Positions 53,472-61,974 of a DNA stretch of 64,000 nt are shown here, in pieces. A model generated the notes under the pieces. It made no database searches. It was not told the DNA's origin and saw nothing but the letters and a program-made list of their open reading frames with translations. A program made the position numbers and the translations under genes. How positions within the stretch are numbered: position 1 is the first letter of the stretch; every line of letters starts with the position of its first letter. Source of the stretch: Paraeggerthella hongkongensis (lineage in GTDB: Bacteria > Actinomycetota > Coriobacteriia > Coriobacteriales > Eggerthellaceae); assembly GCF_003340345.1 (NCBI RefSeq), contig NZ_PPTQ01000004.1, positions 124,001-188,000 on the forward strand, read 5' to 3'.

Positions 53472-54571
53472 TCACCGTCGAGAATTGCGGTAAGACCATC
53501 GACTGGTTGGCAGATCGTGTGGGCGTCTCTTTCCTTGACAGGATAGACATTTACTACGGGCCGTTGCAGATGATGCATAACGTGGACGGCGCGGGCGGCG
53601 GTTTCGCGATTGCCTTCTCGGCTTGTCTTGACGATTTGGGCGTGCAGGTTGAGAAGGGCACGAAGCTGGTGGAAGTGCTTCTGGATGCCGAAGGGCGCGT
53701 TGAAGGCGCGGTTGTGGAGTCCAAGGGCAAGCAGCGACGCATCAAGGCAAAGGCGGTTATGCTGGCAACGGGCGGGTTTGCCCACAATGCCGAGCTGGCT
53801 GCTCGGTTCGATCCCGAAAAAACCGGCACTTTCGGCATAGGGCATCCTAACTGCGAAGGCGATGGCTTGGTGGCGGCATCAAATTCCGGAGCGCTTCTGT
53901 CGCACATAAACCACATGATGTGCATCCTCAAGGATTACACCATCATGAGCGAACACGAGGGAACCTCGGCCAGTGCGAACTTGAATGGGTTCACGAATCT
54001 CCCGAACATGATTTTGGTTGGCTCCGACGGCAATCGATTTGTTGACGAGACCAGCAAGGGGTACATGAGCCAAGATCTCAACAGCCCTATTTTCGACAAG
54101 ATGCATCGTGACGGTGCGGGGTATGTGTGGGAGATATCCGACGAGGCCACGGTTGCAGCTGCTGGTGGCAAGGTGGTTCGCGGCGAAGGTCTTGAGTACG
54201 TGAAGGGCTCCGATGCCGCAGAGCTTGCGAAGAGCATGGGCGTCGATTCGACCGCCCTTGCCGCTACGATCGATGCATACAATGCCGCGGTTGACGCTGG
54301 CGTAGACAAGGAGTTCGGCGGCTTCCCCACGACTAAGCTGGTTGCGCCGTATGTGGCTGTTCCCGTGGTTCCGTGCGAAATCATTACGTATGGCGGCGTT
54401 GCTCGAAGCGAAAAAGCCGAGGTCCTGCGTGCTGACGGACAGATTATTCCCGGATTGTTCGTAGGTGGCGAGGCAAGCTGCAATTCCGCCTACATGGGAT
54501 TCACGCTTTCCAATTGCTTTACCTGGGGGCGCATCGGCGGGCAGAGTGCCGCTTCGTATATTCAGAGCTAA
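53471..54571 (+). pseudogene. 5'-truncated FAD-dependent fumarate-reductase-like flavoprotein
   Basis: Homology-like sequence starts at ITVENCGKTIDWLADRVG and continues for about 366 residues to a normal C-terminus (GGEASCNSAYMGFTLSNCFTWGRIGG, the FAD/adenine contact end). The N-terminal third is gone: no Tat signal and no GxGxxG nucleotide-binding motif, which such proteins (500-600 residues) need. No ribosome site precedes the first usable start (TTG 53507). The body shows no frameshift or stop, so the loss looks recent. Probably non-functional. Confidence 0.75.
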
Positions 54572-54971: not shown

Positions 54972-56300
54972 ATGATGGATGACAGGCTGCTTCGCAGGGG
55001 CGCATGCGCGCTTGCGTTGGTTTTGGCAGCAGGCACGGTTTTGGCGGCATGCTCGAACTCGAACGGCGGCGTTGTGTCTTCGTACGACGGCGTGGCAACA
55101 GTGCTGCAAGCCGCTCTTCCGCAAAAACCCGCTGCCGACGACTATGAAGCTCAGAGTAAAGTGCTCGAAGACAACAAGCTTGATCAGGCGTTCCTCGATA
55201 ACCTGAGCACGTTTTCCTACCGGAGTGCACCTGCCGTGCTTGCGGAGGCGTCCGAAGCAAACGAGAACTACTCGCCCGCAAGCCTTTACTACGCTCTGGC
55301 GATGACGCAAATGGGAGCCGCAGGCAGCACGCAGGACGAGATCGCGGCCTTGCTCGGTGCGGACAACGTCGACGTTACCGCGCAGCAGTGCGGTAATTTG
55401 CTGCGTCTGCTCGCCGCCGATCAATACTCGAACGTCAAGCTGGCCAACTCCGTATGGATGTGCCCCGACGCCGAATTCAACCAGGGGTTCGTCGACGTCA
55501 TGCGCGATCAATTCTACGCATCGTTGTTCCAGACGGATTTCGGCACCCCCGAAGCGGACAAGGCGATGGGGCAATGGGTTGCCGATAACACCGAGGGAAC
55601 GCTGGCTCCGCAGTTCAAAAGCGAGAGTCAGCAGCTGATTTCCCTGATCAACACCGTGTATTTCAAAAGCGAGTGGTCAAAGGCATTCGATGCCGAATCC
55701 GTTTCCCCCGAAACGTTCAACGCCGAAACCGGAAAAGTGACGGCGGATTTCATGGTTCAGCGGCTTGACGGACCTCAGGAGATTCGCGCGACCGATACGT
55801 ACACGCGCGCAAGTTTGGGCTTTGCGGACGGAAGCCAGATGACGTTCGTGCTCCCGGCGCAGGGCGTGCATGCTCGGGATTTGCTGGCCGATGCCGCCGC
55901 GCTCGAAGAGGCGTTCACGGCTGATTCGACTGGAGAAGCGTTCGTAACGTACCATGTTCCGAAGTTTAGTTTCGACAGTTCGTACGACTTGGTTTCATCG
56001 CTGAAAAAGCTTGGCGTGAACAGGGCTTTCAGCGACCAGGCGGATTTCTCGAACCTTACCGACATCCCGGCGTACGTATCAAGCGTGGCGCAGGAGAGCC
56101 ACATCGGGCTTGACGAAAACGGCGTCGAAGCCAGCGCGTACACCAAGGTCGACATCATGGCCATGTCAGCCCTTCCGGATCCTGCGGTTGTGGGCGAACT
56201 GGATTTCAACCTGGATCGCCCGTTTTTGTACGAGATCAAATCCAAGCAAGGGGCGGTGCTGTTTCTGGGCATGTGCGGGGACCCTTCTGCAGGGAAGTAG
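54972..56300 (+). CDS. Lipoprotein serpin (serine protease inhibitor)
   Basis: This 442-residue protein has a lipoprotein signal (lipobox VLAAC, Cys27) and a linker, then a full serpin domain (about 75-440). Serpin hallmarks are YSPASLYYALAMTQMGAAGST (helix B/C), LINTVYFKSEWSKAF (s3A), YHVPKFSFDSSYDL, the hinge GVEASAYT at 384-391 and DRPFLYEI (s4B/s5B). Counting from the hinge Gly as P15 puts P1-P1' at Met398-Ser399, as in alpha-1-antitrypsin. It would trap serine proteases outside the cell. GAGGAGGTTGC precedes ATG 54972. A large subtilase is encoded 2 kb downstream. Confidence 0.92.
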   Translation: MMDDRLLRRGACALALVLAAGTVLAACSNSNGGVVSSYDGVATVLQAALPQKPAADDYEAQSKVLEDNKLDQAFLDNLSTFSYRSAPAVLAEASEANENYSPASLYYALAMTQMGAAGSTQDEIAALLGADNVDVTAQQCGNLLRLLAADQYSNVKLANSVWMCPDAEFNQGFVDVMRDQFYASLFQTDFGTPEADKAMGQWVADNTEGTLAPQFKSESQQLISLINTVYFKSEWSKAFDAESVSPETFNAETGKVTADFMVQRLDGPQEIRATDTYTRASLGFADGSQMTFVLPAQGVHARDLLADAAALEEAFTADSTGEAFVTYHVPKFSFDSSYDLVSSLKKLGVNRAFSDQADFSNLTDIPAYVSSVAQESHIGLDENGVEASAYTKVDIMAMSALPDPAVVGELDFNLDRPFLYEIKSKQGAVLFLGMCGDPSAGK

Positions 56301-56378
56301 CTCGCCAGTACGCAGGTGTACATAATTCGATACTGTGTTGTAAATAAGAATTTGTCTCATTAAGGGGCAACAATCCTT

Positions 56379-56392
56379 CTTACCCTGGTAAG
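56379..56392. promoter_or_regulatory. Candidate operator CTTACC-CT-GGTAAG upstream of katA
   Basis: A 6-bp dyad lies 52 bp before the catalase start. It does not match the PerR or Fur consensus, so the binding protein is unknown. Confidence 0.3.
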
Positions 56393-56443
56393 ATCGTCGC
56401 AACAAGACAGGCGATTCTCAACCAGAAAAGAAGGAGCCCTCCC

Positions 56444-57997
56444 ATGACCGACCAGTTCGACACCACCAGGCTTACCAACGAAGTCGGAAATCCCGTCGCC
56501 GACAACAACCACACGCTGACCGCAGGAGAGCGCGGCCCCATGATGCTCCAGGACAACTGGATGATCGAGAAGCTGGCGCATTTCGATCGCGAGGTTATCC
56601 CCGAGAGGCGCATGCATGCGAAGGGGTCGGGCGCGTACGGCACGTTCAAGGTGACCGGCGACATCACGCGCTACACGAAGGCGAAGGTGTTCCAGCCCGG
56701 AGCCGAAACCGAGGTGTTCGTGCGCTTCTCGACGGTGGCGGGCGAGCGCGGCGCGGCCGATGCCGAACGCGATATTCGCGGCTTCGCCATGAAATTCTAC
56801 ACGCCCGACGGCAACTGGGATCTCGTAGGCAACAACACCCCGGTGTTCTTCCTGCGCGATCCTAAGAAGTTCATCGACCTCAACCACGTGGTGAAGCGCG
56901 ACCCGCACACCAACATGCACTCCGCCCAAAGCAACTGGGATTTCTGGTCCAGCTTGTCCGAAGCGCTGCACCAGGTGACCATCGTCATGTCGGATCGCGG
57001 CATCCCGGCCAGCTACCGCCACATGCACGGTTTCGGCAGTCATACGTTCAGCCTGATCAATGAGGAAAATCAGCGTGTGTGGGTGAAGTTCCACCTCAAG
57101 ACCAACCAAGGCATCAAGAACCTCACCAACGAAGAAGCCGGCCAAATTATCGCAGGCGACCGCGAAAGCCACCAGCGCGACCTGTTCGGCGCTATCGAGC
57201 GCGGCGAGTTCCCCAGCTGGCGCTTCTGCGTTCAGATCATGGACGAGGCTACGGCGAAGAACTACAAGGAGAACCCGTTCGACATCACGAAGACGTGGAG
57301 CCAGAAGGAGTTCCCGCTTATCGAAGTGGGCACGCTCGAGCTGAATCGCAACCCGCAGAACTACTTCGCCGAGGTGGAGCAGGCTGCGTTCGCGCCGACG
57401 CACTTGGTGCCGGGCATTGGACTGTCGCCCGACAAGCTGCTGCAGGGCCGCCTGTTCGCATACGGCGACGCGCAGCGCTACCGCCTGGGCGTCAACCACA
57501 ACCACATTCCGGTGAACAAGCCGCGCTGCCCCTATGCCGAGTTCCACCGCGATGGAGCCATGCGCACGGACGGCAACTTCGGCAGCACGATTGGCTACGA
57601 GCCTAACAGTTACGGCCAATGGCAGCAGCAGGCGGATGCGGCCGAGCCGCCGATGGACCTGTTCGGGCCGATGGATGCATGGGATCCGGCGGACGACCCG
57701 ACCGACGACACCTTCTATCAGCCGGGAGACTTGTATCGCCTGATGGAAGAGCCGCAGCGCGCCGTGCTGATCGCGAACACGGCGGCCGACATGAACGGCG
57801 TGACCGAGAACATTCGCTTGCGCCATGCGGCCCACTGCTACAAGGCCGATCCCGAGTACGGCGACCGTCTGGCCGACGCGCTGGGCGTGGACATAGCTCG
57901 CGTGCACGAGTTGGCTGCGATGACGCACGAGGAACGCATGGCCGCTACCGGCCAGCAGGTTCCGGCTCGCAAGAAGGGCGGGGAAGCGCGCGCCTAG
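56444..57997 (+). CDS. katA: Monofunctional haem catalase KatA
   Basis: The 517-residue clade-3-like catalase dismutates hydrogen peroxide. Active-site residues are His58 in [12 protein letters not shown], Asn131 in [12 protein letters not shown] and the proximal haem Tyr340 in [35 protein letters not shown] is the catalase signature. The length matches small-subunit catalases. AAGAAGGAG precedes ATG 56444. The 144-bp upstream spacer is AT-rich. Presence in an anaerobe points to oxygen-stress defence. Confidence 0.97.
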
Positions 57998-58027
57998 CTC
58001 CCAGTTCCTTCACCTTGCGCGCCCGAA

Positions 58028-58043
58028 TGTTTCACGTGAAACA
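58028..58043. other. parS: parS centromere site TGTTTCACGTGAAACA
   Basis: This 16-bp palindrome is exactly the parS consensus bound by ParB/Spo0J in most bacteria. It sits at the centre of a 24-bp perfect palindrome (58024-58047) in intergenic DNA. In most genomes such sites cluster near the replication origin, so the window may be origin-proximal. Confidence 0.93.
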
Positions 58044-58092
58044 TTCGTTCGCTATCAAGAGGGTTGATTCTTACATTGCTTTCCCATATACG

Positions 58093-58130
58093 GCCGCTTC
58101 TGCTTGCTCCTTTGCAGAAGCGGCTCGTTT
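58093..58130 (+). terminator. Intrinsic terminator downstream of katA
   Basis: Perfect 11-bp stem GCCGCTTCTGC/GCAGAAGCGGC followed by TCGTTT. Confidence 0.8.
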
Positions 58131-58333
58131 CGCGTGGCGTCGATAGGCAAGCCCGCAGGGTCCCGATGGCGCTGCCGAGTTGCTTAGGCGATGACGCGCC
58201 TGCTTCGTCTGCTTCGAGTATGCGCCGATCGGGGTATATTCGCGCATTGCCTTCGCGCTCGGCCTTACGTGTGCGGGGTCTTCTTGCTACTATGGCACCA
58301 TCCGACTTCGCCTTTCACAGAGGGATGGACCAC

Positions 58334-61300
58334 ATGGGACGACTTTTTTCGCTCGTTTTGGCCGCAGTGCTTGCATGTTCGGCGGTCCCCGCGTTTGCCG
58401 ATCCCCCTTCAGCGCCGAGCGATAACCCGATGGTCGGCATCGGCAGCGAAGCGCGCTCGATCGACGACCTGCTGCAGGCGGGCGATTATGCGCCTGGGCG
58501 CGTGCTCGCTCGTGTAACAAGCGAGTTCGCTCCCGTTACTCCGCGCTCGAACTACTCGAACGATGCTGCTTCTTGGTCGGCGGAGTCGCTGTTCACGTAC
58601 GAATCAGGCGCCTACGAGCCCGCAGCGCGCATGCTGTCGGAAAGCGAAGCGCCTGCGGACCAGGTGATTCTTATTCAGTCCGATACCATGACGACCGAGG
58701 ATCTCCTGCGTCAGTTGGCGGGGGCTCCGGGCGTGGTGGCCGCCGAGCCCGATTACGTGCGCACGATCAGCGACCCTGAAAACGCGCCTTCCGCCCGACC
58801 GGAACCATCCCTCGGCGCAGCGCGCGCCGCCGACTCTGCCGAGGCCGCGACCAACGACCCGCTGCTTGACCAGCAGTGGCAGCTGTCTTCCACCTCCGAG
58901 GCGCCGGGCGGTTCTAATGTGCGGACGCTGTGGCAGGAGCTGGGCATTCCCGAAAAGTCGTCCGAGTTGAAGAGCGTTGTGGTTGCCGTGGTCGATACGG
59001 GCGTGGACTACACGAACCCCGATCTTCGAGACGTCATGTGGAGCAACCCCGGAGACATCGGCTTGCCCGGCGAGAAGGGAAGCGCCGGCTACAACTTCGG
59101 CGACGGCGTCGACGATCCCATGGATGTCAACGGACATGGCACGCACGTGGCGGGCATCGTTGCGGCTGCGAACAATAACGCCGAAGGCGGTTCCGGAGTG
59201 GCGCCCAATGTCCGAATCATGGCGCTTCGCATCGCTGATGCAGCGGGGCAACTTCCCTCTTCGGCCCAGATAGGCGCCTATAGCTACTTGAAGCGGGCAG
59301 CTCTCGCCGGCGTGCCGGTCGTGGCTGCGAACGATTCCTGGGGAGGTATGGGCGTCAGCGGCATTCTTGACAGCGTGATGGATGATGCGTATCGCAGCGC
59401 TAATGTCTTGTCGGTGTGCGCATCGGGGAACGAATCTCTCGATAACGACCGATCGCCCGGCAATCCTTCCGGTGGTTCTTCGGAGGGCGTCATTGCCGTG
59501 AACGCCGTTGACCGCCAAGGTGCGCTCGCAGCCTTTTCCTCGTACGGTGCGGCGACGACCGATCTGGCGGCGCCTGGCGATGCTATCTTGTCAACCGTGC
59601 CGGTAGGTCAAGGAATAGTCGATCTCGAGGACAAAGACCTTGTTGTCTTGCAAGACGATTTCGAGAAGCCTGACGGCCTCTTCGCGTTCGACGTGGCCGG
59701 AGATGCTTCGGCGTCGGTCGTGCGCACCGATGAGGTATGGGCCGGGTCCGCCGCATCGGGGCACAGTCTGCAATGGAGCGTGCCTGCTGCGAAGGCAGGC
59801 CAAGAGGCGCATGTCGTGCTGACTCCCGCCGATGGGGCATGGGCGGATCAAACGGCGGGCGCGTCGTTCGAGGACGCGCACTATCTGGCGTTTGACGCGA
59901 AGGTGACTGATTCGACCGCGTCCGGCTCCGCGCGCATTCTGCACGTGTACCTGTCGTCGACTGATCCGGACAATCCTTGGATCGAGCTGTCTCCGGGTAA
60001 AAATCTGGCCGTTTCCTACGACTCATGGTCGACTGTCGCAGCGCACATTCCCGACGAGGCGCGCGAATCGATCGATTGGAAGAATCTGTCCGTCAAGATC
60101 ACGCGCAACCTGGTGCCGTTCGACGAGGGGTCCGACCTCCTGTTCAACATCGATAACGTCTCGCTGATAACTTCGATCATTCCGTACGACAATTTGAGCG
60201 GAACCTCGATGGCCGCTCCGGTGGTGAGCGGCGCCATCGCTTTGCTGGCAGGGAAGTTTCCCGATGAGGATGCATCGACGCTGCGTGCTCGCGTGCTGGG
60301 CGGCGTCGAGCGCACCACGAAGCTTGCCGGTACTTGCACCTCGGACGGCAAGCTTGACCTTGTGCGCGCGGCAACCGATCCGTATCCCGTTGTGGATGCG
60401 CTCGAGCCCGCCGCGCGTGAAGCCGCAGCTGCTCACGCTACGGCGACCATCCGAGGGAGCTGGTTCGGCGATGCTGAAGGGCGCGTTCTCCTTGATGGCG
60501 AAGAGCTTGCCGTGACGGCGTGGGGCGATCAGGGCATTGCCGTCGCGCTGCCCGAACAGCTTGAGGCGAAGATGCGCTACGTGCAGGTGGTGCGTGCCGA
60601 CGGCGCATCGGGAAGGCACCTTCTTCTTGTGGGGCAAGAGGAGCCTCCGGTCTACTATGAAGATTTGCCTGCTCCTAACTTTCAAGATTTGGGGATAGCG
60701 GATGCTGAGCAATCGACTTCGTGGCAGGTGGCGTCTGCGAACGCGACCGTATATGCAGCAAGCGAGAAAGCGGTCACGATGCAGGGGGACCAGTCGGTTT
60801 TCGTTTTGCTGGCGTACGACCCGCTTGCCAAGACGTGGTCGGTCGAGCGTGCGCTCGACGGCGTGTTCGATCATCCGTTTCTCATGGCGGCGCATGGCGA
60901 CGTGCTTTACCTGTTCGATCCGGCCAAGTACCTGCTGTACCAATACGATACGGTTGCCCGTACGCTGAGCGATCCGCTTGACTGCTCGTCGCTGAAAGCC
61001 TGCGTGGATCAGGGAACTGAGCTTGTGTTCGGCGGTGTGGCATGCGACGGGGCATCGCTGTGGTTGAGCGGCGGGTGCTTGCCTGATGGCACCGCCGTGA
61101 CGCTTGCCGCGCGCATCGACGTGCGAACGGGCCAGGCAACGGCTCTGCCTCCCCTGGGCAGCGGGCGCGTCACGCCCGTCGTGCACGTGCTCGATGGAAC
61201 GTTGACGGTGGCGGCAGGCAATGCATCGGTCCAGCCTAGCAGCCTGGTTGGCTCGGTCGAGCAGCTTCGCGAAGGCGCTTGGAAGGCGACGGACGTTCCG

Positions 61301-61798
61301 GATGCCGTCGAGAGCCTTCAGAGCGGGGCCGTTGCCTCGGCGGTGCTTCCGAGCGGCGTGGGCATCGATGGCGTCGCGACCAAGGGCGAGCGACTTGTTT
61401 TCACGGGGCTCGTCAGCGCAGATGACGCAGGTGCCGACACGTACGTGTTCGATCCGGCAACGGGCGCATGGCAGGCGGTGCGCGAGCGCTTTTCGGCAGG
61501 GAAGATGGTCTACGGCGGCGCCACGGTGCTGAATGACGCGCTTTACGTGCTGGGCGAAGACGTGCTTTCCGGCTCAACCGTGTTTAAGCGCCTGGCGCTC
61601 GAGGCGGCTCCCGAGCCCACGCCGCCCACGCCTCCGGTGTCTCCGACGACGCCCGCGTCGCCTGAGAATGGGGCCGGGGCGGATCCGAAGGCGCTCGTGC
61701 GCACCGGCGACGTTGTGCCGCTTGCGTCGACCGCGATCTTGGGCGTGATTGCGATCGCCTGCGGCACGCTTGCGTTCGCGCATCGCAGGCGCCGGTAG
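58334..61798 (+). CDS. Cell-surface S8 subtilisin-like protease with inserted domain and TGD-type sorting signal
   Basis: This 1154-residue protein has a signal peptide (about 1-24, ending FADPP) and an S8 propeptide-like region (to about 170). The S8 domain has catalytic Asp221 (VVDTGVDYT), His268 (NGHGTHVAG) and Ser625 (SGTSMAAP). About 170-190 residues of beta-rich sequence (about 420-605) are inserted just before the Ser motif. A long beta-propeller/kelch-like region follows (about 780-1095). It ends with a Pro/Thr spacer, LVRTGD (1121-1126), one helix and RRRR, a sortase signal in which LPxTG is replaced by LVRTG. ATG 58334 has AGAGGG about ten bases before it; ATG 58325 is also possible. 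Confidence 0.9.
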   Translation: MGRLFSLVLAAVLACSAVPAFADPPSAPSDNPMVGIGSEARSIDDLLQAGDYAPGRVLARVTSEFAPVTPRSNYSNDAASWSAESLFTYESGAYEPAARMLSESEAPADQVILIQSDTMTTEDLLRQLAGAPGVVAAEPDYVRTISDPENAPSARPEPSLGAARAADSAEAATNDPLLDQQWQLSSTSEAPGGSNVRTLWQELGIPEKSSELKSVVVAVVDTGVDYTNPDLRDVMWSNPGDIGLPGEKGSAGYNFGDGVDDPMDVNGHGTHVAGIVAAANNNAEGGSGVAPNVRIMALRIADAAGQLPSSAQIGAYSYLKRAALAGVPVVAANDSWGGMGVSGILDSVMDDAYRSANVLSVCASGNESLDNDRSPGNPSGGSSEGVIAVNAVDRQGALAAFSSYGAATTDLAAPGDAILSTVPVGQGIVDLEDKDLVVLQDDFEKPDGLFAFDVAGDASASVVRTDEVWAGSAASGHSLQWSVPAAKAGQEAHVVLTPADGAWADQTAGASFEDAHYLAFDAKVTDSTASGSARILHVYLSSTDPDNPWIELSPGKNLAVSYDSWSTVAAHIPDEARESIDWKNLSVKITRNLVPFDEGSDLLFNIDNVSLITSIIPYDNLSGTSMAAPVVSGAIALLAGKFPDEDASTLRARVLGGVERTTKLAGTCTSDGKLDLVRAATDPYPVVDALEPAAREAAAAHATATIRGSWFGDAEGRVLLDGEELAVTAWGDQGIAVALPEQLEAKMRYVQVVRADGASGRHLLLVGQEEPPVYYEDLPAPNFQDLGIADAEQSTSWQVASANATVYAASEKAVTMQGDQSVFVLLAYDPLAKTWSVERALDGVFDHPFLMAAHGDVLYLFDPAKYLLYQYDTVARTLSDPLDCSSLKACVDQGTELVFGGVACDGASLWLSGGCLPDGTAVTLAARIDVRTGQATALPPLGSGRVTPVVHVLDGTLTVAAGNASVQPSSLVGSVEQLREGAWKATDVPDAVESLQSGAVASAVLPSGVGIDGVATKGERLVFTGLVSADDAGADTYVFDPATGAWQAVRERFSAGKMVYGGATVLNDALYVLGEDVLSGSTVFKRLALEAAPEPTPPTPPVSPTTPASPENGAGADPKALVRTGDVVPLASTAILGVIAIACGTLAFAHRRRR

Positions 61799-61890: not shown

Positions 61891-61974
61891 TGGTGCCCGA
61901 GGCGAGAGTCGAACTCGCACGTCGTTAGACAACGGTTTTTGAGACCGCCGCGTCTGCCATTCCGCCACTCGGGC
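61891..61974 (-). tRNA. tRNA-Leu (anticodon CAA)
   Basis: The reverse strand folds as an 84-nt class II tRNA with acceptor GCCCGAG/CTCGGGC, D-arm GTGGCGGAATGGCAGACGC, and anticodon stem GCGGT/ACCGT around CTCAAAA (anticodon CAA, reads UUG). A long variable arm and T-arm GCGAGTTCGACTCTCGC follow, and CCA is encoded. The long variable arm fits tRNA-Leu. Confidence 0.97.

Follow-up and report, generated by a model that had tools for sequence, protein, structure and literature searches.

The window, the whole stretch of Paraeggerthella hongkongensis DNA analysed in our study (64,000 nucleotides), belonged to a 2.86-Mb genome and was found to contain a serpin gene, a catalase gene and a subtilase gene on one strand (Table 1). 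The sequence GAGGAGG was present directly 5' of the serpin ATG. The serpin matched PF00079 with 225.4 bits over profile positions 3-370 of 370, where the curated Pfam cut-off is 27 bits, and the NCBIfam search returned no model for it. The features of a bacterial lipoprotein, namely a signal peptide, a lipobox and a Cys at its +1 position (LAAC27), were present, and Cys27 was invariant in the 14 rows of alignment A1. The lipoprotein serpin described in a first-pass annotation was thereby confirmed, and the protein is probably lipidated at Cys27.

Table 1. Positions of the features of the serpin locus in the window
Feature	Position	Strand	Basis or remark
Lipoprotein serpin gene	54972..56300	+	442-aa open reading frame with a PF00079 match
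Signal peptide and lipobox L24-A-A-C27	54972..55052	+	Sequence; Cys codon 55050-55052; lipidation presumed
Linker from lipid anchor to serpin domain, residues 28-77	55053..55202	+	PF00079 match starts at residue 78
Serpin domain, residues 78-438	55203..56285	+	PF00079, E = 1.6e-66; model similar to solved serpins, best Z 45.3
Reactive-loop hinge P17-P8, E382-T391	56115..56144	+	Counting and phmmer alignment
Predicted P1-P1' bond Met398-Ser399	56163..56168	+	Hinge count; alignment to conserpin with the alpha-1-antitrypsin loop
Catalase	56444..57997	+	PF00199, 5.3e-184; between serpin and subtilase
S8 subtilase, predicted to be exported	58325..61798	+	PF00082, 2.4e-39; outside the conserved setting of the serpin

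The catalase gene had gone unmentioned in the first-pass annotation, which had described the gene behind it as a wall-anchored S8 protease. The S8 assignment stood, as the catalytic D, H and S motifs were present together with the PF00082 match, and the signal peptide placed the start of the subtilase near 58325 instead of 58064. The anchoring was weakened: the C-terminal tail contained a hydrophobic span and RRRR but LVRTG in place of LPXTG, and the one sortase match in the genome reached 23.6 bits, below the Pfam cut-off of 26.6. The subtilase is thus only likely to be wall-anchored.

The serpin and the subtilase were 78 and 70% identical, respectively, between the window and the other genome of the genus (G001). 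A fragment of an FAD flavoprotein (flavocytochrome c-like; 354 aa, with the N-terminal half missing) was present at 53507-54571. It was 98.9% identical by tblastn to residues 387-752 of a 752-aa frame in the other P. hongkongensis genome, far above the identity of either neighbour.

Reactive loop and structure model

The hinge of the reactive loop was ENGVEASAYT. Counting from Glu382 as P17 placed Met398 at P1 and Ser399 at P1', and the phmmer alignment, gapless from hinge to P1', placed this pair opposite the Met-Ser of a conserpin carrying the alpha-1-antitrypsin loop. Both routes therefore led to the bond that the first-pass annotation had predicted by counting, and the length from P17 to P1 was identical in the aligned relatives. 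The hinge had likewise been called inhibitory, and its residues agree with a predicted inhibitory type: P17 Glu and P15 Gly were followed by small or uncharged residues, among them P12 Ala, P10 Ala and P8 Thr. Set against the hinge consensus quoted in PMC8233489 (ExGTEAAAA), the sequence departed at P14 (Val), P11 (Ser) and P9 (Tyr).

In the close clade of 14 sequences, P1 was Met in 12 and Thr in two, and P1' was Ser in 12 and Ala in two. At P2, the window serpin contained Ala, and 10 of the 14 sequences contained Glu. Among the 26 other serpins of the family, P1 was Met (8), Thr (6), Gly (5), Ser (3), Ala (3) or Glu (1); outside Eggerthellaceae (n = 68) it was Ala (29), Ser (18), Gly (8), Thr (7), Met (2), Cys (2), Val (1) or Lys (1). 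The loop from P8 to P6' was highly conserved in the six Paraeggerthella and Gordonibacter sequences, with 13 of 14 columns invariant vs 134 of 298 core columns. Only three of 350 windows of loop length, that of the loop itself counted in, reached 13 invariant columns. The sole variable column was P2, where the other five sequences contained Glu. Across all 14 clade sequences the loop was not conserved beyond the core (2/14 invariant columns vs 76/297). The loop was thus constant within the nearest genera and shifted among more distant ones, with P1 remaining Met or Thr.

The shutter position (residue 374 in the window) contained Gln where conserpin contains His, so that the shutter His of inhibitory serpins was not kept. 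The same Gln was found in all 14 close sequences, in 9/26 other serpins of the family and in 67/68 relatives from outside Eggerthellaceae, and we did not take it as excluding the protein from the inhibitory class.

The AlphaFold2 model, built with 63 sequences, had a pLDDT of 87.8 and showed a serpin fold, the best match among solved structures covering 354 aligned residues at 2.4 Å rmsd. Residues 384-396 formed an inserted strand, and residues 397-407 and 18-32 were below pLDDT 50. The top structural matches were mostly cleaved, latent or loop-inserted serpins; therefore, the model shows the relaxed form. It is consistent with an insertable loop cut near residue 398. The first-pass annotation had proposed structure prediction of the loop as a check, and the model supplied the inserted strand but, at low confidence over 397-407, did not fix the P1-P1' bond.

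Distribution of the serpin and the catalase beside it

Of 138 genomes of the family Eggerthellaceae, 38 contained a serpin, as did 112 of the 395 from the order as a whole. The statement of the first-pass annotation that bacterial serpins are uncommon did not hold in this group. Serpins are common in the order, whereas three other actinobacterial families are given as the chief holders of serpins in the main text of a survey (PMC6718151). The contig search with alignment A1 found 167 relatives, of which 80 were kept; the contig search with the single serpin protein as query found none. In a quick-method tree of 106 rows, with SH-aLRT as its only support, the window fell in a clade of 14 rows (98) inside a set of 92 rows with Bacillota serpins, and the rows from Bacillota and elsewhere outside the family, having been retrieved with patterns from the close clade, are no fair sample of serpins at large. 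A second, distant lineage of Eggerthellaceae serpins (14 rows; e.g., G064, G041, and G061) was separate from this set, and several of its members contained Met/Thr-Ser at P1-P1'. One locus (L059 of G041) contained tandem serpin genes with different loops, the P1-P1' residues being Ala-Ala in one and Met-Ser in the other.

The common gene order was aldolase, catalase, serpin, tRNA-Leu(caa) and M20 peptidase. In Paraeggerthella, the catalase was found 3' of the serpin and the subtilase ahead of the tRNA. The tRNA-Leu(caa), at 61891-61974 of the window and also in loci L031-L046 and L141-L143, followed the serpin region in 12 of the 14 loci scanned. The content between the aldolase-like gene and this tRNA varied among genomes, as in an insertion hot spot; in G088, the stretch ahead of the tRNA contained other genes, including an IS110-type transposase and an FAD protein. 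With the tRNA considered as a candidate integration site, direct repeats were sought in this part of the window, and no clear att pair was seen among the 20 of 31 repeat families listed.

Catalase was present in 18/138 genomes of the family, that is, in all 14 serpin genomes of the close clade vs 4/124 others. The distance between serpin and catalase in the clade was up to 1.5 kb in 9 of 14 genomes, up to 5 kb in 10 and up to 10 kb in 12; G067 and G069 kept both genes apart from each other. Among the family's remaining 24 serpin genomes, only one contained catalase, and outside the family the co-occurrence of the two genes was below expectation (2/74 vs 19/183, p = 0.045; the Fisher p values ignore kinship). 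Met at P1 was found without catalase in G075, G093, G100, G105, and others, and Thr at P1 with catalase in G054 and G087. The only within-genus contrast noted was between G087, with both serpin and catalase, and G088 and G089, with neither. For a serpin-catalase operon, the promoter scan found 0 where 0.9 were expected by chance, and terminator matches were at chance level (4 found, 4.2 expected).

One explanation of this linkage is that in the gut lineage of Paraeggerthella, Gordonibacter, Eggerthella, Raoultibacter, and Rubneribacter a lipoprotein serpin with Met at P1 and the catalase beside it protect the cell jointly, as a two-gene shield against neutrophils, in which the serpin would trap elastase-type proteases and the catalase would remove the peroxide that oxidises the P1 Met. 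If true, oxidation by peroxide would switch the inhibitor off, and the catalase would prevent this. We consider such a shield highly improbable and held the link back because the clade represents a single lineage with a common gene order, because catalase was found in only one of 24 serpin genomes elsewhere in the family, and because the two genes co-occurred below expectation outside it. That the catalase tracks the serpin clade can be explained by inherited gene order.

Inhibitory function and candidate protease targets

Met at P1 suits enzymes of the elastase, chymotrypsin, and subtilisin types. We propose that the protein is probably an inhibitory serpin, held by a lipid anchor on the outer face of the membrane and directed against serine proteases from outside the cell. 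A protease of the chymotrypsin/elastase or subtilisin type, either a host digestive or neutrophil enzyme or one from another gut microbe, would cleave the exposed loop at the Met398-Ser399 bond or close to it; after cleavage, the loop would enter sheet A and trap the protease as a dead covalent complex, so that surface proteins would be spared. The inhibitory reading is supported by the PF00079 score far over its cut-off, the hinge residues, the constant length from P17 to P1 and the inserted strand of the model, as well as by the loop conserved in six sequences and the invariant lipobox Cys. It also has a precedent, since Bifidobacterium longum and Eubacterium siraeum possess gut serpins that act on neutrophil elastase according to a review (PMC8201313). 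It is weakened by the departures of the hinge from the consensus, by the shutter Gln and by a loop that was unremarkable across the 14 sequences. The protein could plausibly act against proteases of the host or the gut.

The first-pass annotation had suggested that the serpin could protect the cell from its own protease, namely the neighbouring subtilase, and PinA, a serpin of Clostridium thermocellum, inhibits subtilisins (PMC8201313). Both proteins are predicted to be exported, and in G000 and G001 the two genes were close together on the same strand. These two Paraeggerthella genomes were, however, the only ones in which the subtilase adjoined the serpin, and the catalase gene sat between them. 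An S8 domain was found near the serpin in one (G001) of 39 loci searched beyond the window, 30 of them long, and the best relatives of the subtilase, in G021 (52%), G064 (48%), and G067 (42%), were not beside a serpin: G021 was without a serpin, and in G064 and G067 the two genes were more than 300 kb apart. Serpin and S8 genes did not co-occur either in the family (S8 in 25/38 serpin genomes vs 59/100 others, p = 0.56) or with the close clade (10/14 vs 74/124, p = 0.57), by Fisher tests that take no account of kinship. No S8 match was found in G068, G069, and G070 of the Gordonibacter group (completeness 82% for G068 and 99% for the others), yet their loop from P8 to P6' was letter for letter that of G001; this unchanged loop also supports the inhibitory reading. 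On locus, co-occurrence, and loop evidence the neighbouring subtilase was therefore rejected as the target; it is unlikely to be the selected one, and a guard against it is very unlikely. An older protease of the same cell, for example a surface protease of the trypsin family, is a somewhat better but still unlikely target. One PF00089 match was found in each of the 14 clade genomes, and an invariable target would account for a loop that stays constant; the presence of such a possible target in every genome weakens the case for an external one. The presence of this protease does not require a serpin, since PF00089 was found in 11 of 14 control genomes and serpins in three, and the protease is only probably HtrA-like.

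The bond used by an inhibitory serpin may also differ from Met398-Ser399, being Ser399-Ala400 or several bonds depending on the protease, and we consider this rather unlikely, though less so than the two targets just described. The clostridial relatives contain (A/S)-(A/M/L)-P one residue nearer the hinge, and aligning the ALP motif would make Ser399 the P1 residue; neutrophil elastase and proteinase 3 are reported to cleave siropins at the P3-P2 and P6-P5 bonds (PMC5127057), and residues 397-407 appear disordered in the model. Hinge length favours Met398, a position with Met or Thr in all 14 close sequences. That the protein is a non-inhibitory serpin with another role is strongly doubted. 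The shutter Gln, P14 Val, and P9 Tyr hint at it; the small or uncharged hinge residues and P8 Thr were kept in the relatives, however, and the loop was conserved in the six Paraeggerthella and Gordonibacter sequences. We therefore retain the inhibitory lipoprotein serpin as the preferred reading.

The lineage includes common gut and clinical anaerobes, and gut serpins that act on elastase-type enzymes are of interest for gut inflammation. Its P1 residue is mostly Met, unlike that of the counted clostridial relatives, and the serpin is a clean, testable candidate.

Comparison with known serpins

By 2021, four serpins from the gut had been functionally characterised, according to a review of that year (PMC8201313). 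Among the literature matches listed, taken at the level of titles and the starts of abstracts, no title dealt with a serpin from any of the genera Eggerthella, Gordonibacter, and Paraeggerthella. Serpins of bacteria, including gut bacteria, that target elastase-type enzymes have been described (PMC8233489; PMC8201313), and the Paraeggerthella serpin adds a member to this group.

Outside the family, the serpins closest in the tree were lipoprotein serpins of gut Clostridia (e.g., L069-L140), which were 34-43% identical and in many cases contained a lipobox. They differed in P1, which was Ala, Ser, or Gly in 55 of the 68 outside sequences, and in a shorter loop, the distance from P17 to PF being commonly 32 residues vs 35 or 37. 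The serpin of Bifidobacterium longum (SerpinBL) is likewise from a gut actinobacterium, and its reported elastase-type targets are those proposed here (PMC8201313); the likeness is one of description rather than of compared sequences. Siropins 1 and 2 of Eubacterium siraeum, compared by description rather than by alignment, are also gut serpins and act on neutrophil elastase and proteinase 3, whereas subtilisin was not inhibited (PMC5127057). Siropin 1 was predicted to be intracellular and siropin 2 extracellular, in a passage that does not mention a lipoprotein, whereas the Paraeggerthella serpin contained a lipobox. Miropin (PDB 5ncs, 5nct, and 5ncu) and tengpin (2pee, 2pef, and 2vh4) had the same fold as the model (Z 38-42) and were among the best profile matches, behind synthetic conserpins; they were about 24-25% identical over the aligned part, and their loop sequences were unlike that of the Paraeggerthella serpin. 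The analogy with human alpha-1-antitrypsin drawn in the first-pass annotation held for the Met-Ser pair at P1-P1', which the alignment via conserpin-AATRCL places in common, and did not extend further: P2 is Pro in alpha-1-antitrypsin and Ala or Glu in the serpins of the close clade, the primed side was eight residues longer than in the conserpin with the alpha-1-antitrypsin loop, and the Paraeggerthella serpin is a bacterial lipoprotein.
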